Shown here piece by piece: positions 9,373 through 26,556 of a DNA stretch of 64,000 bases. Below the pieces are notes generated by a model, which saw only the letters and a program-made list of their open reading frames with translations, searched no databases and was not told the DNA's origin. Within the stretch, counting starts at the first letter, position 1. Every line of letters begins with the position of its first letter. A program made the translations under genes and the position numbers. Origin of the DNA: Pseudomonas sp. F(2018) (GTDB lineage Bacteria > Pseudomonadota > Gammaproteobacteria > Pseudomonadales > Pseudomonadaceae); the NCBI RefSeq assembly GCF_005508865.1, contig NZ_SCOM01000003.1, positions 372,001 to 436,000 on the forward strand, in the 5' to 3' direction.

Positions 9373-9578
9373 GGTGCTGCTCCTTGGCTGTTCGTTGCGT
9401 GGGCTCACTATGCTCAGGAACGAAATGGAATAAAAAGAATAAATAACGATTTATTTATTCCATAAAGAGCTATAAAGAGTCTCGACAGAAAAGCATAAGC
9501 ATCTAATCAATTATTCTTTCAAAGAATAAAAGTCGCCTTCTATAGTCGGCGGCGCTCTCTATCTTCCAAGGACGTCAG
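9373..9578. promoter_or_regulatory. Divergent lsfA-ssu / sbp control region with AT-rich dyads
   Basis: This is unusually AT-rich for the window. GGAATAA (9427-9433) faces TTATTCC (9455-9461), with an inner pair AATAAAT/ATTTATT (9438-9444 and 9449-9455). A second perfect palindrome, TTATTCTTTCAAAGAATAA, covers 9511-9529. The first dyad is nearer lsfA and the second nearer sbp. The TTATTCC half resembles sites I recall for CysB, so joint control by sulfur starvation is likely but inferred. Confidence 0.65.
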
Positions 9579-10574
9579 ATGAAACGCCTATTGCCCCTCT
9601 CGCTGTTGGCCGCCGGCTTCGCTCTCGCCACCTCCGCCCAGGCGGCGAGCCTGCTCAACGTCTCCTACGACGTGATGCGCGACTTCTACAAGGACTACAA
9701 CGCCGCCTTCCAGAAGCACTGGCAGGCCGAGGGCGGCAAGCCGCTGCAGATCCAGATGTCCCACGGCGGCTCGAGCAAGCAGGCCCGCGCCGTGATCGAC
9801 GGCCTGCAGGCCGACGTGATCACCATGAACATGGCCACCGACATCAACGCCCTGGCCGACAACGGCGGCCTGGTGCCCAAGGACTGGGCCGAGCGCCTGC
9901 CGAACCACAGCGCGCCGTTCACCTCGGCCACCGTGTTCATCGTGCGCAAGGGCAACCCCAAGTCCCTCAAGGACTGGCCGGACCTGCTCAAGGATGGCGT
10001 GCAGGTGGTGGTGCCGAACCCCAAGACCTCGGGCAACGGCCGCTACACCTACCTCTCCGCCTGGGGCTACGTGCTGCAGAACGGCGGTGACGAGACCAAG
10101 GCCAAGGCCTTCGTCGGCAAGCTGTTCAAGCAGGCCCCGGTGCTGGACACCGGCGGCCGTGCCGCCACCACCACCTTCATCCAGAACCAGATCGGCGACG
10201 TGCTGGTGACCTTCGAGAACGAGGCCGAGATGATCGCCCGCGAATTCGGCCGCGGCAGCTTCGAGGTGGTCTACCCCAGCGTCTCCGCCGAGGCCGAGCC
10301 GCCGGTCACGGTGGTCGACAAGGTGGTCGACAAGAAAGGCACCCGCGCCGAGGCCGAGGCCTACCTCAAGTACCTGTGGTCGCCGGAAGCCCAGCGTATC
10401 GCCGCCAACAACTACCTGCGTCCGCGTGATCCGCAGATCCTCGCCGAATTCGCCGACCGTTTCCCCAAGGTCAGCTTCTTCAGCGTGACCAAGACCTTCG
10501 GCGACTGGCCGCAGCTGCAGGCCACCCACTTCAAGGACGGCGGCGTGTTCGACCAGATCTACACCGTTCAGTGA
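9579..10574 (+). CDS. sbp: Periplasmic sulfate-binding protein, orphan copy
   Basis: A 331-aa Sbp/CysP-family protein that captures sulfate or thiosulfate for the CysTWA importer. A signal peptide of about 22 residues ends in SAQA. Family signatures are [55 protein letters not shown] and VLDTGGRAATTTF. It has no transporter genes beside it; the cysTWA set with its own sbp lies about 17 kb away. A strong terminator follows. It is divergent from lsfA-ssu and shares the AT-rich control region, which suggests co-induction. Confidence 0.93.
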   Translation: MKRLLPLSLLAAGFALATSAQAASLLNVSYDVMRDFYKDYNAAFQKHWQAEGGKPLQIQMSHGGSSKQARAVIDGLQADVITMNMATDINALADNGGLVPKDWAERLPNHSAPFTSATVFIVRKGNPKSLKDWPDLLKDGVQVVVPNPKTSGNGRYTYLSAWGYVLQNGGDETKAKAFVGKLFKQAPVLDTGGRAATTTFIQNQIGDVLVTFENEAEMIAREFGRGSFEVVYPSVSAEAEPPVTVVDKVVDKKGTRAEAEAYLKYLWSPEAQRIAANNYLRPRDPQILAEFADRFPKVSFFSVTKTFGDWPQLQATHFKDGGVFDQIYTVQ

Positions 10575-17887: not shown

Positions 17888-18868
17888 ATGTCCCGCGCTC
17901 TGCTTTCCCGCCGCACCCTGCTCGGTCTCGGCCTGAGCCTCGGCCTGTTCGCCAGCCTGCCCACCTCCGCCGAGGCGGATACCGCCCTGCGCATCGGCTA
18001 CCAGAAGTCCTCCACCCTGATCAGCCTGCTGAAGAGCCAGGGCACCCTGGAAAAGGCCCTGGCCGGTCAGGACATCCAGGTCAGCTGGCACGAGTTCGCC
18101 AGCGGCCAGCCGCTGCTCGAGGCGCTCAACGTCGGCAATATCGACCTGTCCGCGGATGTCGCCGACACCGTGCCGGTATTCGCCCAGGCTGCCGGCGCCA
18201 AGCTCACCTACTTCGCCCAGGAAGCGCCCTCGCCGGCCGCCCAGGCGATCCTGGTGCGCGACGGCTCGCCGCTGCAGGCGCTGGCCGACCTCAAGGGCAA
18301 GAAGGTGGCGGTGACCAAGGCCGCCGGCGCCCACTACCTGCTGATCGCCGCGCTGGCCAAGGCCAACCTGAAGTTCAGCGATATCCAGCCGGCCTACCTG
18401 ACCCCGGCCGACGGCCGCGCCGCCTTCGAGAACGGCAAGGTCGACGCCTGGGTGATCTGGGAACCCTTCCTCAGCGCCGCCCAGCGCCAGCTGCCGACCC
18501 GCACCCTGGCCGACAGCAAGGGCCTGGCCAGCTACCAGCGTTACTACCTGACCAGCACCAGCTTCGCCGCCCAGCATCCCCAGGTGCTGCAGACCGTGTA
18601 CGCCGAGCTGGTCAAGGCCGGCGACTGGCTGCGCGCCAACCCGGCCGAGGGCGCGCAGATCCTCGGCCCGCTGTGGGGCAACCTCGACCCGGCCATCGTC
18701 CAGCAGGCCAACGGCCGCCGCAGCTACCAGGTGCGCGCCGTGCAACCGGGCAGCCTGGCCGAGCAGCAGAAGATCGCCGACGCCTTCTTCGCCGAGGGCC
18801 TGCTGCCCAAGCGCGTGGACGCCAGCCAGGTGGCCATCTGGCAGCCGGAGCCCCGCGATGGCCAGTGA
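17888..18868 (+). CDS. Orphan SsuA-like sulfonate-binding protein
   Basis: A 326-aa periplasmic protein with a signal peptide containing SRRTLLGLGLSLGLF, which resembles a twin-arginine motif only loosely. It matches SsuA closely: LRIGYQKSSTLISLLKSQGTLEK, LKGKKVAVTKAAGAHYLLIAAL and FENGKVDAWVIWEPF. It has no permease or ATPase of its own. It overlaps the next gene, a flavin monooxygenase, by 11 nt. It probably feeds the SsuBC or the 13.5-16.1 kb permease with a substrate for that enzyme, which is inference. Confidence 0.9.
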   Translation: MSRALLSRRTLLGLGLSLGLFASLPTSAEADTALRIGYQKSSTLISLLKSQGTLEKALAGQDIQVSWHEFASGQPLLEALNVGNIDLSADVADTVPVFAQAAGAKLTYFAQEAPSPAAQAILVRDGSPLQALADLKGKKVAVTKAAGAHYLLIAALAKANLKFSDIQPAYLTPADGRAAFENGKVDAWVIWEPFLSAAQRQLPTRTLADSKGLASYQRYYLTSTSFAAQHPQVLQTVYAELVKAGDWLRANPAEGAQILGPLWGNLDPAIVQQANGRRSYQVRAVQPGSLAEQQKIADAFFAEGLLPKRVDASQVAIWQPEPRDGQ

Positions 18869-20084
18869 AGCCCGTCATCTGCATCCGCAGGCCGAACCGC
18901 TGCTGGATGCACGGCTGTTCCCAGTCGACTTCGGCAACCTCACCGCGCGGGTCGAACGACTGGCCCGCAAGCTGGCCGAGAGCGCCGTGGAGCGCGACCG
19001 CCGCGGCGGCCATGCGCGCGCTGAACGCGAGCTGATCCGCGATAGCGGCCTGCTCGGCCTGGCGATCCCGCAGCGCTTCGACGGCCAGGAACGCGCCTGG
19101 CCGGAGATCTACCGCATCGTCCGCCACCTGGCCGCGGCCGACAGCTCGCTGGCCCACCTGTTCGCCTTCAACCACCTGCAGGTGGCGACCATCCTCCTGC
19201 ACGGCAGCGCCGAGCAGCAGCGTCACTGGCTGACCCGCGCGGTGCGCGAGCGCTGGTTCTGGGGTAACGCCAGCAATGGCCGCGACCTCGGCCTGAGCCT
19301 GGCGCCACGCGAGGAACACTTCGAGCTGAACGGGCGCAAGTCATTCTGCTCCGGCGCCCTCGGCTCGGACGCCCTGGTGGTCAGCGCGCCGCGTGGCAAC
19401 AGCGCCACGGAGCGGGTGTTCCTGGTGCTGCCGGCGCAGCGCGAGGGCCTGGCGATCAACGACGACTGGGATGCCTTCGGCCAGCGCCAGACCGACAGCG
19501 GCACGGTGCAGTTCGAGAATGTCTTCGTCGACCGCGACGAGCTGCTGGTGTCCGGCGGCCAGAGCCCGCGCAGCAGCCTGCGGGTCTGCGTGTCGCAGCT
19601 GACCCTCACCCAGCTCTACCTGGGCAACGCCCAGGGCGCACTGGATGGCGCCCTGCGCTACACCCGCGAGCAGGCCCGCCCCTGGCCCGGCGCCGGGGTC
19701 GACGAAGCGCGCGAAGACCCGTTTATCCAGAAACGCTACGGCGAACTGTGGCTGCTCTATCGCGGCGCCCTGCTGCTGGCCGAACAGGCCGCCGAGCGCC
19801 TGCAGCAGGCCTGGGACAAACCGGCCCTGGGCGCCGCCGAGCGTGGCGAGGTGGCGCTGCTGATCGCCGAGGCGCGAGTGGCCTCGGCCCGCGCGGCGCT
19901 GGAGATCACCAGCCAGGTGTTCGAGGCCATGGGCGCCCGCGCCACTGCCGCGCGCTACGGCTTCGACCGCTTCTGGCGCAACGTGCGGGTACACAGCCTG
20001 CATGACCCGCTGGACTACAAGGTGCGCGACATCGGCCAGTGGCTGACCAGCGGCGTGGCGCCGACGCCGTCGCTGTACTCCTGA
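18858..20084 (+). CDS. Acyl-CoA-dehydrogenase-fold flavin monooxygenase, SfnB/DszC-like
   Basis: A 408-aa protein with the acyl-CoA dehydrogenase fold: N-terminal helical part (residues about 20-120), beta domain (about 125-235) and C-terminal helical bundle (about 245-390). The catalytic glutamate region of true dehydrogenases is not evident, and YGFDRFWRNVRVHSLHDP is typical of the DszC/SfnB monooxygenase branch, which uses reduced flavin to oxidise sulfur compounds. It overlaps the SsuA-like gene by 11 nt, and the nearby ssuE could supply FMNH2. A terminator follows. The substrate is unknown. SfnB-type dimethyl sulfide/sulfone metabolism is one option. Confidence 0.85.
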   Translation: MASEARHLHPQAEPLLDARLFPVDFGNLTARVERLARKLAESAVERDRRGGHARAERELIRDSGLLGLAIPQRFDGQERAWPEIYRIVRHLAAADSSLAHLFAFNHLQVATILLHGSAEQQRHWLTRAVRERWFWGNASNGRDLGLSLAPREEHFELNGRKSFCSGALGSDALVVSAPRGNSATERVFLVLPAQREGLAINDDWDAFGQRQTDSGTVQFENVFVDRDELLVSGGQSPRSSLRVCVSQLTLTQLYLGNAQGALDGALRYTREQARPWPGAGVDEAREDPFIQKRYGELWLLYRGALLLAEQAAERLQQAWDKPALGAAERGEVALLIAEARVASARAALEITSQVFEAMGARATAARYGFDRFWRNVRVHSLHDPLDYKVRDIGQWLTSGVAPTPSLYS

Positions 20085-20864: not shown

Positions 20865-21494
20865 ATGCAACAGGATCGCCGCATCACCTTCTTTCACTCG
20901 CCGCGCAGCCGCTCCACCGGCACCGCCATCCTGCTCCAGGAGCTGCACGCCGATTACCGCCCGCGCCTGCTCAGCATCAAGCAGGGTCAGACGCGCCAGG
21001 CGGAGTACCTGGCGATCAACCCGATGGGCAAGGTGCCGGCCATTCTCCACGGCAACACCCTGATCACCGAGCAGGGCGCGGTATTCATCTACCTCAGCGA
21101 TCTGTATCCGGAAGCCGGCCTCACCCCGCCGCTGGGCGACCCGCAGCGCGGCGCCTGGCTGCGCTGGCTGGTGTTCTACGGTTCGAGTTTCGAGCCGGCC
21201 ATCGCCGACCGCGCCCAGCAGCATGTGCCGCCACAGTCGATGAGCCCCTACGGCGATTTCGATACCATGCTCGGCACCCTGGTGCAGCAGCTGGAACAGG
21301 GGCCCTACCTGCTCGGCGAGCGCCTGAGCAGCGCCGACATCCTCTGGGGCACAGCGCTGAAATGGACGGTCGGTTTCGGCGTGGTGCCGGCGCTGCCGGT
21401 GATCCAGGCCTACGTCGAGCGCATCGCCGCGCGCCCCTCGGTGGCCAAGGTCGCCGAGCTGGAAGCGCAGTGGCTGGAGCAGCTCGGCGACTAG
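20865..21494 (+). CDS. Glutathione S-transferase family protein
   Basis: A 209-aa cytosolic GST. The thioredoxin-like N-terminal domain has SPRSRSTGTAILLQEL, the cis-proline in NPMGKVPAI and the glutathione-binding LITEQGAVFIYLSDLYP. A helical C-terminal domain follows with LSSADILWG. The ATG follows a GGAGG ribosome binding site. Its stop codon overlaps the stop of the convergent sigma-54 activator gene (shared CTAG). The role is not evident; conjugation or detoxification is generic for the family. Confidence 0.88.
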   Translation: MQQDRRITFFHSPRSRSTGTAILLQELHADYRPRLLSIKQGQTRQAEYLAINPMGKVPAILHGNTLITEQGAVFIYLSDLYPEAGLTPPLGDPQRGAWLRWLVFYGSSFEPAIADRAQQHVPPQSMSPYGDFDTMLGTLVQQLEQGPYLLGERLSSADILWGTALKWTVGFGVVPALPVIQAYVERIAARPSVAKVAELEAQWLEQLGD

Positions 21495-22396
21495 ATCGCC
21501 AGGCGCTGGCGCAGCAGCTCCAGCTCCGCGCCACTGAGCAGCGCCAGCTGGCGCTCGATGGCCTGCAGCGGTGAGCCCGCCGGCAGGTTGAGGTGCTGCG
21601 GCAGGATCTCCTCGCCGCTGCTCACCAGCAGGGCGAAGTGGATGACGTTCTCCAGCTCGCGAGTATTGCCGTGCCAGGGGTGGCCCTCCAGCGCCGCCTG
21701 GGCATCCAGGCCGATCTGCGGGATATCCAGACCCAGGCGCTGGGCATAGATGCCGAGGAAGTACTCGGCCAGCGGCAGGATGTCGCCGGGCCGCTCGCGC
21801 AGCGCGGGCAGCTCCAGACGCCCCTCGTTGAGGTAGAGGAACAGCCGCTCGTTGAACTTGCCGGCGGCCACCGCCTGGGCCAGGTCGATGCTGGTGGCGG
21901 CCACCAGGCGCGCGTCCACCGGCGTCGCCTGCTGTCCGCCGACACGCTGCACCTCGCGGGTCTCCAGGGCGCTGAGCAGCTTGCCCTGCAGGGCCAGCGG
22001 CAGGTCGCCGATCTCGTCCAGGTAGAGGGTGCCGCCGTTGGCCGAACCGAACCAGCCGGCGCGGCTGCTGGCGGCGCCGGAATAGGCCCCGGCGGCATGG
22101 CCGAACAGCTCGGCCTCGCCCCACTGCGGGCTGATCGCACCGCAGTTGACGGCGACGAACAGGCCGCCACGCTCGCTCTCGCGGTGCACGTGACGGGCCA
22201 GCAGCTCCTTGCCGGTGCCGGTCTCGCCGAGGATAAGCACCGGCAGTTCGGCGACGGCCAGGGCATTGGCCTGCTCGCGCAGCTGGCGCGAACGCGGGTC
22301 GACGAACACCAGCGCCTTGGCGCGGATGCTCAGCGGGCTCTTCTCGGTGTCGGCAAAGGTCAGCAGGGCTTGCTGGGGGAAATCTGGGCGGCTCAT
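21491..22396 (-). CDS. Divergent sigma-54 activator AAA+ protein lacking a DNA-binding domain
   Basis: A 301-aa protein that is nearly all AAA+ enhancer-binding-protein domain. Walker A GETGTGKE (residues 57-64), Walker B GGTLYLDE (121-128) and the sensor II segment WHGNTRELEN (241-250) are intact. The sigma-54 contact loop reads GAYSGA (103-108) instead of GAFTGA. The positions of the two trans-acting arginines (PspF R162 and R168) are Asn182 and Tyr188. There is no N-terminal receiver and no C-terminal Fis-type helix-turn-helix; the chain ends LLRQRLAI. The N-terminal SPLSIRAKALVFVDPRSR recalls SfnR-type activators of organosulfur use. ATG 22396 is preceded by AAGAGA. It could be a degenerate gene or a regulator that works in a hetero-oligomer. 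Confidence 0.85.
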   Translation of the reverse strand: MSRPDFPQQALLTFADTEKSPLSIRAKALVFVDPRSRQLREQANALAVAELPVLILGETGTGKELLARHVHRESERGGLFVAVNCGAISPQWGEAELFGHAAGAYSGAASSRAGWFGSANGGTLYLDEIGDLPLALQGKLLSALETREVQRVGGQQATPVDARLVAATSIDLAQAVAAGKFNERLFLYLNEGRLELPALRERPGDILPLAEYFLGIYAQRLGLDIPQIGLDAQAALEGHPWHGNTRELENVIHFALLVSSGEEILPQHLNLPAGSPLQAIERQLALLSGAELELLRQRLAI

Positions 22397-22503: not shown

Positions 22504-23085
22504 TCATGCGCGCAGGCGTTCCTGCTGCTCGATCTGGCGCTGCAGGCGGTACAGGTAGGCGAAGCCCTGCTCCCAGCGCTGGTGGCCGGACTTCACGTTG
22601 ATATGTCCGGCGCCCGGCAGGATGGCCGCCTGGGCGCCCCAGGCGCGGGCCAGTTCGAGGGCACGCGGTGCGCTGGCGGCGTGGTCGTTGTCCGAGCCGA
22701 CCAGCAGGCTGGGGAACGGCAGCAGCTCGCGGGAGATCGGGGCAAAGCCGCGCAGCGCCTCGGGGCAGCCGGCCCGTTCGACATCGGCCGGCGCCACCAG
22801 CAGGGCGCCGCGCACCTTGCGCAGGGACGCCAGCGGTGCCTGGACGGCCCAGCGGGCCACGGTGACGCAGCCGAGGCTGTGCGCCACCAGGATCAGCGGG
22901 CCGCGGGCGGCGGCCACCTGCTGTTCCAGCGCGGCGACCCAGCTCTGCGGGTCGGGATTGTCCCAGTCCGCCTGTTCGACCCGGCTGGCGTGTGGCAGAT
23001 TGCGCTGCCAATGACTCTGCCAATGGTCGTCCGGCGAACCCTGCCATCCTGGCAGGATCAGGTAACTGGTGGTCTGGCTGGCCAT
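22504..23085 (-). CDS. RBBP9/YdeN-family serine hydrolase
   Basis: A 193-aa alpha/beta hydrolase of the small RBBP9/YdeN type. The nucleophile is in VAHSLGCVTVARW, the acid probably in VGSDNDHAAS and the histidine in LPGAGHINVKSG. The N-terminus YLILPGWQGSPDDHWQSHW is diagnostic. It is the first gene of a two-gene unit with the sigma-54 activator-like gene. Its control region carries the GGAATAAG/CTTATTCC dyad found before lsfA, so a role in sulfur starvation is plausible. The natural substrate is unknown. Confidence 0.87.
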   Translation of the reverse strand: MASQTTSYLILPGWQGSPDDHWQSHWQRNLPHASRVEQADWDNPDPQSWVAALEQQVAAARGPLILVAHSLGCVTVARWAVQAPLASLRKVRGALLVAPADVERAGCPEALRGFAPISRELLPFPSLLVGSDNDHAASAPRALELARAWGAQAAILPGAGHINVKSGHQRWEQGFAYLYRLQRQIEQQERLRA

Positions 23086-23332
23086 GACGGGCCTCCTCGA
23101 TACGTTCCGGAGGCCAGTCTAGGCAGGGATGGATTACAAGTTAAGGAATAAGAATTCATTTACTTATTCCATTTATACCAACACTCGTCTGCCGAACGGC
23201 CTGGCAGCCGCCAGCATGCTCGTCTTTGCTTGAGCCTGTTCGCATCGTCCCGATGTCGTTCCAGTGGCGCCCTCCGGTCTTGCTCGCTCACTCCAACGTA
23301 GGACCGTTTCCACTCACGGAGGAGGCGCCGCC
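23086..23332. promoter_or_regulatory. Divergent control region with GGAATAAG/CTTATTCC dyad
   Basis: The perfect arms GGAATAAG (23145-23152) and CTTATTCC (23163-23170) lie 60-85 bp upstream of the hydrolase start. They match the outer dyad before lsfA. The rest towards 23332 shows no clear promoter until the GGAGG ribosome binding site of the rightward gene. Confidence 0.6.
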
Positions 23333-25015
23333 ATGCCCGATGCCGCGGCCATCGCCTGGTTCAAGCAAGAGTTCCGCCCGCGCATCGAGCCTGCGCTGCG
23401 CGGCACGCCCCTCACCCTCGACCTGCTCACCGCCATCGCCTGTCAGGAGACCGGCTACCTGTGGAACCGCCTGCGCAAGCAGATGCCGGTGGCGCGGGTG
23501 CTTGAGCTGTGCGTCGGCGACACGCTGGACGCCAGCGCCGGGCGCCGCGCCTTCCCGCAGACCAAGGCCGAGCTGCTCAGCAAGCCCAACGGCCAGGCCA
23601 TGTTCGACCTGGCGCGCCAGGCCCTGGTGGAGATGGCCGAGCACATTCCCGACTACCGCAAGGCGGCCGCCAATCCGAACAAGTTCTGCCACGGCTTCGG
23701 CATCTTCCAGTACGACCTGCAGTTCTTCCTGCAGGAGCCGGACTACTTCCTGCAGCGCCGCTACGCGGACTTCGACGCGGCCCTGGACAAGGCGGTCGGC
23801 GAGCTGCGCGCCAAGCTGCACCGCCTCGGCTGGGCGGACAAAAGCAGCCTCAGCGACTTCGAAATGGCGGCCCTGGGCATCGCCTACAACCGCGGCAGCT
23901 TCACCCCATCCAAGGGCCTCCGGCAGGGCTACTTCGATGGCACCCGCTACTACGGCGAGGCGCTGTTCGACTTCATCCGCCTGTGCCACAGGGTCGACCC
24001 CGACGGCCCGAGCGCGCCAACGGCCCCCGGCCAGGCGCCGCTACCGCCGATGGCCGAGCCAAGTGCGGCGGGCAAGCTGTTCGAGGTACAGGTCAGCAGC
24101 GGCATGCTCAACCTGCGCGCCAGCCCAGAGATACCCGCCAGACCGGCGAGCAACCTACGCGGCTCGCTGCCGGACGGCCAGCTGGTACAGGCCGTGGGCG
24201 GGCGCCAGGAAAACGGCTTCCTGGAGATCCAGACCCGGCTCAACGGCGCCCTGCTGCAGGGCTTCGTCGCCGCGCGCTACCTCAAGCCGGCGCCCGCCGG
24301 CAGCGTGCTGGCGCCACCGGCGAGTGCTGCGCAGGGCCTGCCCGAGGCGCATATGCCGCGCAAGAGCGACTCGCTGAGCAGACGCAGCGAGGCGGCCAAC
24401 GCCCATTCGCTGAACGAGAAGAACCAGCCGGGCCGCCAGGGCGGCGACGCCACCCAGCGCCGTGCAGAGCTGGCGGCGATCATCGCCTGGCTGGCGGTGG
24501 ACGACCCCGCCCACCTGCGTTACCAGCCGGGTAACGGCCGCACCTACTGCAACCTGTACGCCCACGACTACTGCCACCTGGCCGGTGCCTACCTGCCGCG
24601 GGTCTGGTGGAGCGCCGGCGCGCTGCTGCGCATGGGCCGTGGCGAGACGGTGGCGGCGCATTACGGGCAGACGATCGAGGAGCAGCGGGCCAACGATCTG
24701 TTCCGCTGGCTGCGCGATTTCGGCGAGGGCTTCGCCTGGCGTCGCGCCGCCGACCTGGAGGAACTGCAGCTGGAAGCCAACCAGGGCGCCATCGGCCTGA
24801 TCGTGGCGCGGCGCAAGGTCGACGGCAAATCCGGGCATATCGTGGTGGTGGTGCCGGAGTCAGGCGAGCTGCATGCCCGTCGCGACAGTGCTGGGCGCAT
24901 CACCGCCCCGCTGCAGAGTCAGGCCGGGGCGAGCAACTTCCGCTATGGCACCGGCAGGAGCGACTGGTGGCGCGACGAGCAGTTCGCCGAGTTCGCCTTC
25001 TGGCTACACCCCTAG
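23333..25015 (+). CDS. Multidomain cell-wall enzyme: lysozyme-like, SH3 and cysteine-peptidase-like domains
   Basis: A 560-aa protein with three parts. Residues 1-220 look like a lytic-transglycosylase or lysozyme-like domain (AIACQETGYLW with Glu39, then GFGIFQYDLQFF and ALGIAYNRGSF). Residues about 250-318 are an SH3-like repeat (SSGMLNLRASPEIP through AARYLKPA). Residues about 380-555 resemble a CHAP/NlpC-type cysteine peptidase with Cys406 in YCNLYAHDYC and His502 in KSGHIVVVVPE. No signal peptide is visible, so export would need another route. A strong GGAGG site precedes the ATG. Domain names are from motif reading only. Confidence 0.68.
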   Translation: MPDAAAIAWFKQEFRPRIEPALRGTPLTLDLLTAIACQETGYLWNRLRKQMPVARVLELCVGDTLDASAGRRAFPQTKAELLSKPNGQAMFDLARQALVEMAEHIPDYRKAAANPNKFCHGFGIFQYDLQFFLQEPDYFLQRRYADFDAALDKAVGELRAKLHRLGWADKSSLSDFEMAALGIAYNRGSFTPSKGLRQGYFDGTRYYGEALFDFIRLCHRVDPDGPSAPTAPGQAPLPPMAEPSAAGKLFEVQVSSGMLNLRASPEIPARPASNLRGSLPDGQLVQAVGGRQENGFLEIQTRLNGALLQGFVAARYLKPAPAGSVLAPPASAAQGLPEAHMPRKSDSLSRRSEAANAHSLNEKNQPGRQGGDATQRRAELAAIIAWLAVDDPAHLRYQPGNGRTYCNLYAHDYCHLAGAYLPRVWWSAGALLRMGRGETVAAHYGQTIEEQRANDLFRWLRDFGEGFAWRRAADLEELQLEANQGAIGLIVARRKVDGKSGHIVVVVPESGELHARRDSAGRITAPLQSQAGASNFRYGTGRSDWWRDEQFAEFAFWLHP

Positions 25016-25022
25016 GCGCGGC

Positions 25023-25991
25023 TCAGCCGAGGACGATGCAGTCCTTGCCCTGGCGCTTGGCCTGGTACATGGCGGCGTCGGCGCGGGCGTAGAGGTCCTC
25101 CAGCTCGTCGCCCTCGCGCAGGCTGGTGATGCCCTGGCTGATGGTCACGCCGAAGCTTTCGCCGTCGTTGTGGAACTGCAGGCGCTGCACCTCACGCTGC
25201 AGACGCTCGGCCACCTGGCGCGCCTGCTCGCTGTCGCAGCCGGGGAAGACGATGGCGAACTCCTCGCCGCCGATGCGCCCGAACAGGTCGTCGCGGCGCA
25301 CCACATAGGCGCCGCAGTGGGCCACGCGCTGCAGCACGCGGTCACCCATCTGGTGGCCGTGGCCGTCGTTGATCTTCTTGAAGTCGTCGATATCCAGCAG
25401 CAGGAACGACAGCGGCCGGCCGTTGGCGACCGCCTCGTCGAACAGGGTGCCGGCCTGGTCGAAGAAATGCCGGCGGTTGCTCGCGCCGGTTAGCACGTCG
25501 CTGGTGGCCAGGCGATGCAGCTCGCTCTGCAGCACCTTCTTCTCGGTGATGTCCTCGGCGATGCCGACGATCAGGGTCTGCCCGTCGAACAGGTTGGGCG
25601 GGCTGATGAAGCACTTGTCGCTGAGCCAGCGCACCTCGCCGTCGCCCCGGATGATGCGGTACTCGCGCTGCTCAACCGAGCCCACCTCGAGAACCGACGC
25701 CAGGCTCTGGGCGGCGTACTCCATGTCGTCCGGGTAGATGCTGTTGAGCCACTCGTTGTAGTCGGCCAGCAGCAGCGCGGCGCTGCGGCCGAAGATCTGC
25801 TCGTACGCCGGGCTGACGTAGACCACCTTCTGCTGCTCCCAGTCGAAGGCCCACAGCACCGCGTTGAGACCGGCCAGCAGGCTGCTCACCAGCAGCTCGC
25901 GTTCACGCAGGCGCTCAACCTCGCCGCGGCTGTGCAGCAGCGCCAGGGTCAGGGTTTCCAGCTCGCTGGGAGCCTGCTCGTTGTCGTCCAT
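25023..25991 (-). CDS. PAS-GGDEF diguanylate cyclase
   Basis: A 322-aa soluble cyclase that makes c-di-GMP. A short coiled N-terminus (about 10-35) leads into a PAS domain (about 38-155) and a GGDEF domain (about 160-322) with an intact GGEEF in FGRIGGEEFAIVF. The substrate loop LLDIDDFKKINDGHGHQMGD is complete. The ATG at 25991 is supported by AAGGCGA upstream; another ATG 24 bp further up has no ribosome binding site. It is convergent with the cell-wall enzyme gene and divergent from oscA. Confidence 0.92.
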   Translation of the reverse strand: MDDNEQAPSELETLTLALLHSRGEVERLRERELLVSSLLAGLNAVLWAFDWEQQKVVYVSPAYEQIFGRSAALLLADYNEWLNSIYPDDMEYAAQSLASVLEVGSVEQREYRIIRGDGEVRWLSDKCFISPPNLFDGQTLIVGIAEDITEKKVLQSELHRLATSDVLTGASNRRHFFDQAGTLFDEAVANGRPLSFLLLDIDDFKKINDGHGHQMGDRVLQRVAHCGAYVVRRDDLFGRIGGEEFAIVFPGCDSEQARQVAERLQREVQRLQFHNDGESFGVTISQGITSLREGDELEDLYARADAAMYQAKRQGKDCIVLG

Positions 25992-26259
25992 CGGACGTCG
26001 CCTTGTCACATTCATGAACTGAAGACTATGCGCCCAGCCGACTCGCTGGCGATGGTGGCAACCGGGTGTTGTGACGAGTGGCAGAAATTTCGACTCCGCA
26101 GTCAGGAAGCGGGAACCCGAAGCAGATTCTGCGGTATACCGAGGCCTTATAGATCTCAAGAGAATAAATAAAGAAATAAACATTCTTTTTAAGAATATGC
26201 ATCTCCCCCTACTATCCGCTCCACGCCCAACCCCGGGCCACCATCCAAGGAGCAGAGTC
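25992..26259. promoter_or_regulatory. AT-rich control region upstream of oscA-sbp
   Basis: The part from about 26160 to 26200 is AT-rich, with repeated AGAATAAA/GAAATAAA elements and the inverted repeat ATTCTT (26182-26187) and AAGAAT (26191-26196). The style matches the lsfA-sbp region. The oscA ribosome binding site AAGGAG is next to its ATG. Confidence 0.55.
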
Positions 26260-26442
26260 ATGAGCGCCACTCTCAGAAGCGTCGAAGGCCAGGACGAAGC
26301 CGGCATCCTGCGCGAAATCCAAGTAGCCCTGCAGAACCTGCGTTTCGGTTCGGTGGAAATCACCGTGCACAACGGCCAGGTGGTGCAGATCGAGCGCAAG
26401 GAAAAATTCCGCCTGCAGGCCCAGAACGCCAAGCAGGCCTGA
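26260..26442 (+). CDS. oscA: OscA/YezD-type small protein, organosulfur utilisation
   Basis: A 60-aa protein of the DUF2292 family. The core EILREIQVALQNLRFGSVEITVHNGQVVQIER-type sequence is present: a predicted helix followed by a beta hairpin. In Pseudomonas corrugata oscA lies upstream of sbp and was linked to organosulfur use and chromate tolerance. The same position is seen here. The ATG at 26260 follows AAGGAG; frames extending further upstream run into the promoter. The molecular function is unknown. Confidence 0.87.
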   Translation: MSATLRSVEGQDEAGILREIQVALQNLRFGSVEITVHNGQVVQIERKEKFRLQAQNAKQA

Positions 26443-26481
26443 TCACCGCGAAACCCGACTGGACGACCGGAGGGCGCCACC

Positions 26482-26556
26482 ATGAAAGTCAGCACACCCG
26501 CCACGAGCATGCCCATGCAGCGGCCCAGTCTTTGCCCAGCGCGAATGCGTCAGTGA
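26482..26556 (+). CDS. Possible 24-codon leader peptide before sbp
   Basis: A short open frame lies between oscA and sbp. It has an excellent GGAGGG ribosome binding site (26469-26474) 7 nt before the ATG and ends in TGA at 26554-26556. The product begins MKVSTPATSMPMQRPS and contains one cysteine, one leucine and three further methionines besides the start. It ends 68 bp before the sbp start. Position and size suggest a translated leader that could sense sulfur-amino-acid supply, but there is no terminator hairpin clearly tied to it. Confidence 0.42.
   Translation: MKVSTPATSMPMQRPSLCPARMRQ

Follow-up and report, generated by a model that had tools for sequence, protein, structure and literature searches.

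The protein encoded at 21491-22396 (minus strand) of the window, the 64,000-nucleotide stretch of Pseudomonas sp. F(2018) DNA analysed here, belongs to a lineage-wide family of short relatives of sigma-54 activators in which, by alignment, the parts that have been replaced are those predicted to complete the site of a neighbouring subunit or to contact sigma-54; the same pattern recurs throughout the family and the ATP pocket is intact. Based on these comparisons, we tentatively favour the reading that the gene encodes a pseudo-activator specific to Pseudomonadaceae, which would have been derived once from an SfnR-like activator, would be made together with sulfur-acquisition genes and would act as a subunit that stays silent within mixed activator rings. 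A first-pass annotation of this DNA had pointed to the altered catalytic loop and the missing DNA-binding domain; to these our analysis adds sensor I Ser169, Ala101 and Gly117, the serine hydrolase gene upstream and the lineage-wide family itself.

Motifs kept and motifs replaced

The open reading frame runs from an ATG at 22396 down to 21491 and has 301 codons. In the Pfam scan of the 301-aa protein, residues 33-193 match Sigma54_activat (PF00158, E=2.4e-55) and residues 200-270 match AAA_lid_14, with no helix-turn-helix, no DNA-binding domain and no receiver domain, in agreement with the first-pass annotation, which had described, without giving the strand, a 301-residue chain lacking a Fis-type helix-turn-helix. 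The stop codon (21491-21493, minus strand) shares 2 bases with that of the GST gene at 20865-21494, which runs toward it, an overlap that had also been reported correctly. The PF00158 domain is present in all 47 members of our alignment A1, none of which matches a helix-turn-helix family at E<=0.1; for members other than these 47, absence of the motif was judged from length and by eye only. The helix-turn-helix of the long forms is replaced by a C-terminal tail (residues 271-301; 21494-21586, minus strand) with two predicted helices, and throughout the short family the tail past the lid is short and variable in length between species. The AlphaFold2 model of the protein, built with 47 close sequences, is poor (mean pLDDT 60, pTM 0.46) and was relied on solely for these two helices. 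None of the 25 NCBIfam matches listed, out of 28, reaches its own cut-off, and the PADLOC matches, which were discounted, are to RtcR-type CARF-AAA-HTH models over the AAA+ part.

Motifs were tallied over 99 distinct short members (the long form L121 excluded), which are not independent, many being closely related; the 59 members below 90% identity, which were set against 27 long forms, give the same picture. Walker A (GETGTGKE, residues 57-64, G57-E64; 22205-22228, minus strand), Walker B (LDE, residues 126-128, L126-D127-E128; 22013-22021, minus strand) and sensor II (GNTRELE, residues 243-249, with Arg246; 21650-21670, minus strand) are kept, as had been claimed: the catalytic lysine (K42), the Walker B glutamate (E108) and the sensor II arginine (R227) are each found in 99/99 members and the Walker B aspartate (D107) in 98/99. 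The switch asparagine N64 is Asn in 70 of the 99 and Ser in 29.

The L1 loop reads GAYSGA rather than GAFTGA (residues 103-108; 22073-22090, minus strand), and in the family PspF F85 is kept in 0/99 members (His in 57, Tyr in 28) and T86 in 2/99. In the arginine-finger segment FNERLFLYL (residues 181-189; 21830-21856, minus strand), R162, D164 and R168 of PspF are replaced by Asn182, Arg184 and Tyr188; alignment bears out the residue numbers that the first-pass annotation had given for the loop, Asn182 and Tyr188. Family-wide, R162 is absent from all 99 members (H 39, N 27, D 16, S 11, L 6), R168 has become Tyr in 98, with a single Arg in L120, and D164 has become Arg in 87. Three further positions are also replaced: PspF E97 is Gly117 here (22046-22048, minus strand), with Gly in 99/99 short members and Glu in 27/27 long forms; PspF N149, in sensor I, is Ser169 (21890-21892, minus strand), with Ser in 99/99 short members and Asn (23) or His (4) in the 27 long forms; and PspF E81 is Ala101, Glu being found in none of the 98 short-form residues listed of 99. 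Several of the replacement residues are themselves invariant across the short family. Of the features of a functional sigma-54 activator, the AAA+ domain is present, and the GAFTGA motif, the R162 and R168 fingers and the C-terminal helix-turn-helix, which is usual rather than universal, are missing. The available text of one study describes R162' and D164' as touching E108 and N64 of the adjacent subunit (PMC4132715), and the replacement of these residues therefore suggests that the contribution of the short form to the neighbouring subunit has been rewritten.

A lineage-wide family and its long relatives

The short form is matched at E<=1e-90 in 181 of the 199 genomes of the genus Pseudomonas, and one further genome (G096) has a short gene truncated by a contig end. 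The first-pass annotation had proposed checking whether the short form and its motif changes are conserved across species; these 181 genomes and the 99 members answer that they are. By our reading of matches and loci, the short form extends to about 12 of the 19 genera of Pseudomonadaceae; the tally at E<=1e-75, with long forms included, is 108/198 genomes and 14/19 genera. No short form was found outside Pseudomonadaceae in 293 genomes of the order at E<=1e-72, a threshold that may miss more distant short forms. The sole genome outside the family matched there (G416) has two matches, one read as a long form with fingers (L266), the other with an open frame of 374 aa.

The long forms, which we take to be SfnR-like, share with the short form the AAA+ domain and lid and the lack of a receiver domain; the comparison rests on such SfnR-like sequences rather than on an experimentally tested SfnR. 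The long paralogue in the same genome, 53% identical to the short protein, has this architecture and a C-terminal helix-turn-helix match. Unlike the short family, the long forms carry GAFTGA (45), GAFSGA (5) or GSFSGA (1) in all 51 sequences, and both R162 and R168, with D164, E97 and F85, in 27/27, E81 being kept in 26 (one Asp). In a tree of 92 proteins, the 59 short forms make one clade (100/100 support, branch length 0.75) nested among SfnR-like long forms, with long-form clades as nearest relatives; they stand apart from the long-form clade in which an SfnR orthologue would be placed. One genome (G202) has a long form with an HTH-like tail, GAFSGA and fingers (L121) alongside a short form (L122) with no recognisable GAFTGA in the L1 loop region.

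Pairwise dN/dS of this short gene against 18 loci, of which 17 are distinct (L048 and L141 are one genome), was computed by the simple method of Nei and Gojobori, in which distant values are inflated by codon bias. The 10 distinct pairs with at least 84% identity give 0.097-0.257 and the other 7 pairs 0.216-0.559, as compared to 0.074-0.152 for the SfnR-like long form (4 pairs) and 0.071-0.244 for the hydrolase (8 pairs). Selection on the short gene, as read from these sequences, is clearly purifying, though the long form is under somewhat tighter constraint, and the relaxed selection that had been raised as a sign of a pseudogene is not seen in the close pairs. In one close relative (L269, G148), whose hydrolase is 87% identical, the short gene is entirely missing from beside the hydrolase gene, which is followed by another gene on the opposite strand.

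An SfnR-like protein was considered as the obligatory partner of the short form and rejected. With the long paralogue of the same genome as query, 134 of the 199 genus genomes match at E<=1e-105, and a hand comparison gives both forms in 132 genomes, the short form only in 49, the long form only in 2 (one of them G096, with its short form cut at the contig end) and neither in 16. The SfnR-like match is hence missing from 49 of the 181 short-form genomes, and in seven genomes (G028, G154, G286, G338, G354, G385, G388) the short form has no second match even at 1e-75. In G270, both activator matches are short forms. Selection is not weaker where the SfnR-like form is missing: among hand-picked close relatives, with one locus of G270 (L049) omitted, the median dN/dS of the short form is 0.199 without it (4 loci, 6 pairs) and 0.224 with it (5 loci, 10 pairs), and counting L049 among the loci without it gives 0.170 (10 pairs). 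The SfnR-like activator is therefore one candidate partner and not an obligatory one.

The persistence of the short form in genomes without an SfnR-like match is also what would be expected if the protein had been recruited outside sigma-54 control altogether, for instance as an adaptor that binds ATP and serves a sulfur transporter or another regulator. The elements known to be needed for sigma-54 work are gone while fold and ATP pocket are retained, and of the 60 loci that we read, hand-picked from genus and family matches with the window's own locus included, 30 contain a MetQ-type gene. We hold this recruitment to be unlikely on balance, while giving it a real share of our credence.

Gene neighbourhood and promoter element

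Directly upstream of the short gene, on the same strand, lies a gene for a 193-aa RBBP9/DUF1234-like serine hydrolase (22504-23085, minus strand; Pfam Ser_hydrolase 1.2e-65, PDB 3bdv 5.3e-28), with which it probably forms an operon. This arrangement holds in 52 of the 60 loci. The eight exceptions are six loci of one genus (g9), the second activator locus of G270 (L094) and the long form L121. In the six g9 loci a MetQ/NlpA-type gene lies upstream on the same strand, adjacent in four and one gene off in two; in a seventh g9 locus (L101) the short gene lies between the hydrolase, upstream, and MetQ, downstream, and the g9 hydrolase is found elsewhere in the genome in all 7 genomes searched. The second G270 copy, also a short form, has no hydrolase beside it; it follows a gene that by eye looks SsuC-like, and TTATTCC occurs about 1 kb upstream of it.

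At E<=1e-45 the hydrolase is found in 193 of the 199 genus genomes and is missing from none of the 181 with a short form. Together with the conserved position of its gene, this would suit a short protein that serves as ATP-dependent regulator or scaffold of the hydrolase and is no longer tied to transcription. Since nearly every genome of the main genus has the hydrolase, the 0/181 is weak evidence, and of the 12 genomes with hydrolase and without a short-form match, 11 have no activator remnant in the stretch read beside the hydrolase (E<=1e-3), the other being G096. With the g9 arrangement in addition, where the activator sits behind MetQ in 6 of 7 loci read, we consider regulation of the hydrolase unlikely; the hydrolase as an obligatory co-factor is weakened by the same 11 genomes and the same arrangement. 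Taken together, the co-occurrence counts establish neither the hydrolase nor the SfnR-like long form as a partner.

The surroundings are rich in sulfur genes, as the first-pass annotation had recognised: the window holds Sbp-CysTWA, an alkanesulfonate monooxygenase and two further SsuA-type binding proteins, and Sbp occurs in 29 of the 60 loci, on the opposite strand in 25. A DszC/SfnB-like oxidoreductase (18858-20084) scores 351 bits against one curated cut-off of 850 and 266 against another of 431, far too low for either, and perhaps represents a separate sulfur-scavenging subfamily. Between the hydrolase and Sbp there is a 583-aa open reading frame (23264-25015) that matches neither Pfam nor NCBIfam at E<=0.001. 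A PAS-GGDEF protein (25023-26516) is encoded beside the sulfate transporter, and genes of the PAS-GGDEF cluster, a name given by eye, are found upstream of the short gene at 7 of the 60 loci.

Upstream of the hydrolase gene we found a conserved promoter element, GGAATAAGTAAATGAATTCTTATTCC (23145-23170, minus strand), with one match in the window, and by eye a candidate -10 hexamer, TAGACT (23117-23122, minus strand); the 7-mer TAGACTG is over-represented, in 23 of 52 upstream regions. TTATTCC or GGAATAA precedes the hydrolase at 40 of 52 loci (shuffled mean 2.4, largest 6) and the shorter TTATTC or GAATAA in 47 of 52 (shuffled mean 8.5). Counted before all genes of the 60 loci, where many neighbour clusters were named by eye, the TTATTCC/GGAATAA 7-mer precedes 33/42 hydrolase genes, 20/27 MetQ genes, 16/52 CysA/SsuB-type ATPase genes and 27/471 of the unnamed rest. 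It is scarce or absent before most other sulfur genes (Sbp 3/29, TauD-like 2/12, SsuA-like 0/16 and 1/11, DszC-like 0/7, SsuC-like 0/11 and 0/8), and it is therefore no general mark of sulfur genes. A further 17 loci, 16 of which lack the activator at this place, all keep TTATTC in front of the hydrolase, so that the element belongs to the hydrolase gene; as GGAATAA also precedes the MetQ gene in 6/6 loci of the MetQ arrangement, the short gene stands behind an element-bearing gene in both settings. A GGAATAA/TTATTCC pair is also present at 9427-9461, ahead of the gene for a second sulfate-binding protein (9579-10574).

CysB was considered as the factor that might act on the TTATTCC element. 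That reading is unsupported: few of the other sulfur genes have the 7-mer in front of them, and the long element is matched once in the window and 2 times in its own genome, with 2 matches for the reversed control. Kouzuma 2008, according to the reference list of PMC10949508, names a CysB-SfnR hierarchy in sulfate starvation in its title. Control of the hydrolase-short gene operon by sigma-54 was likewise rejected: no -24/-12 promoter was found in the 52 hydrolase upstream regions of about 260 bp each, and in the window matches with one mismatch number one, as against 3.2 expected by chance.

A proposed silent subunit of mixed rings

In the mechanism that we tentatively favour, the short protein would probably be expressed in sulfur shortage, as its neighbour genes suggest. 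It would bind ATP but, given the motifs it has lost, would neither hydrolyse it efficiently as a homo-oligomer nor activate the sigma-54 polymerase, and would work on another protein through its ATP-bound surface. Most likely it would insert itself into the rings that other activators form, as a non-firing subunit which takes an arginine finger and gives none, and would thereby lower or reshape the output of the mixed ring. The two gene arrangements, with the hydrolase and, in one genus, with MetQ, both under the same 7-mer, are consistent with such a subunit. The replaced finger face could equally mean that ring formation has been lost, and the serine at the N64 switch position in 29 of 99 short forms also speaks against the model; owing to its rarity before most other sulfur genes, the 7-mer lends no support to sulfur control of the unit. 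With no SfnR-like match in 49 of 181 genomes, mixed rings would call for a different partner or for more than one, and the silent subunit may act on several activators and not on SfnR alone. The suggestion of the first-pass annotation that the protein tunes a full activator by forming a hetero-oligomer with it is thus possible and close to our best model, save that the most obvious candidate for that activator, an SfnR-like protein, is not found in those 49 genomes. A more specific form, in which a dedicated, lineage-wide silent subunit without finger, sigma-54 contact or DNA anchor silences one neighbouring site per copy while sulfur limitation sets the dose, is possible but doubtful.

Hetero-oligomers of activators do exist, and the available text of PMC9542535 names HrpR/HrpS, FleQ/FleT and the VnfA paralogues. 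In HrpR/HrpS and VnfA the paralogous members of the mixed assemblies are described as co-dependent or cooperating activators, whereas here one member would be catalytically silent. FleT of Rhodobacter sphaeroides, like the short form, lacks receiver and DNA-binding domains and is, in the available text of PMC7175178, the only known activator without regulatory and DNA-binding domains; the likeness rests on this absence of domains. FleT activates by pairing with FleQ (PMC7277832), and the short protein could in the same manner be a positive co-activator that aids a full activator at particular sigma-54 promoters; alleles of Caulobacter NtrC, which has no GAFTGA, that lack DNA binding are described as activating a subset of sigma-54 genes (PMC12421884, available text). 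The short family has lost both fingers and the GAFTGA motif, which would make help with hydrolysis or remodelling unlikely, and it adjoins sulfur genes; nor is the unit itself apparently under sigma-54 control, as there is no -24/-12 element before the hydrolase in the 52 loci. We regard a FleT-like role as quite improbable. A decaying gene or a sequencing artefact, both raised by the first-pass annotation and suggested by the absent domain and broken motifs, deserves next to no credence, and pseudogene and frameshift alike are rejected, since the short form with its invariant replacement residues is conserved as one clade over many species and genera and its close pairs give a dN/dS of about 0.1 to 0.26.

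VpsR and YplP bind DNA. With Caulobacter NtrC (PMC12421884), they (PMC3162934) are activator homologues in which, as in the short form, GAFTGA is missing or broken; Caulobacter NtrC has a DNA-binding helix-turn-helix and acts at sigma-70 promoters (PMC12421884), whereas the short family has no such helix-turn-helix. The available text of PMC3162934 gives FleT as the type without both domains and mentions about 110 homologues with minor GAFTGA deviations, which may include members of the short family. Our literature search found no paper on the short family, and a report could exist, for example within studies of SfnR.

These short proteins match sigma-54 activator families strongly, which calls for care in annotation. 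PP5166 of P. putida, which we take to be a member of the short family, is an example. Its label in the available text of PMC4211546, Fis family transcriptional regulator, contrasts with the lack of a Fis-type domain in the 47 short members scanned. How the subunits of an AAA+ activator ring share their work is an open question and the subject of PMC12054792. If our reading is true, a natural family in which the ATP-receiving half is kept and the ATP-completing half is replaced would offer a ready-made tool, and it would provide both a physiological reason for mixed rings and an extra layer in the control of sulfur metabolism in Pseudomonas.
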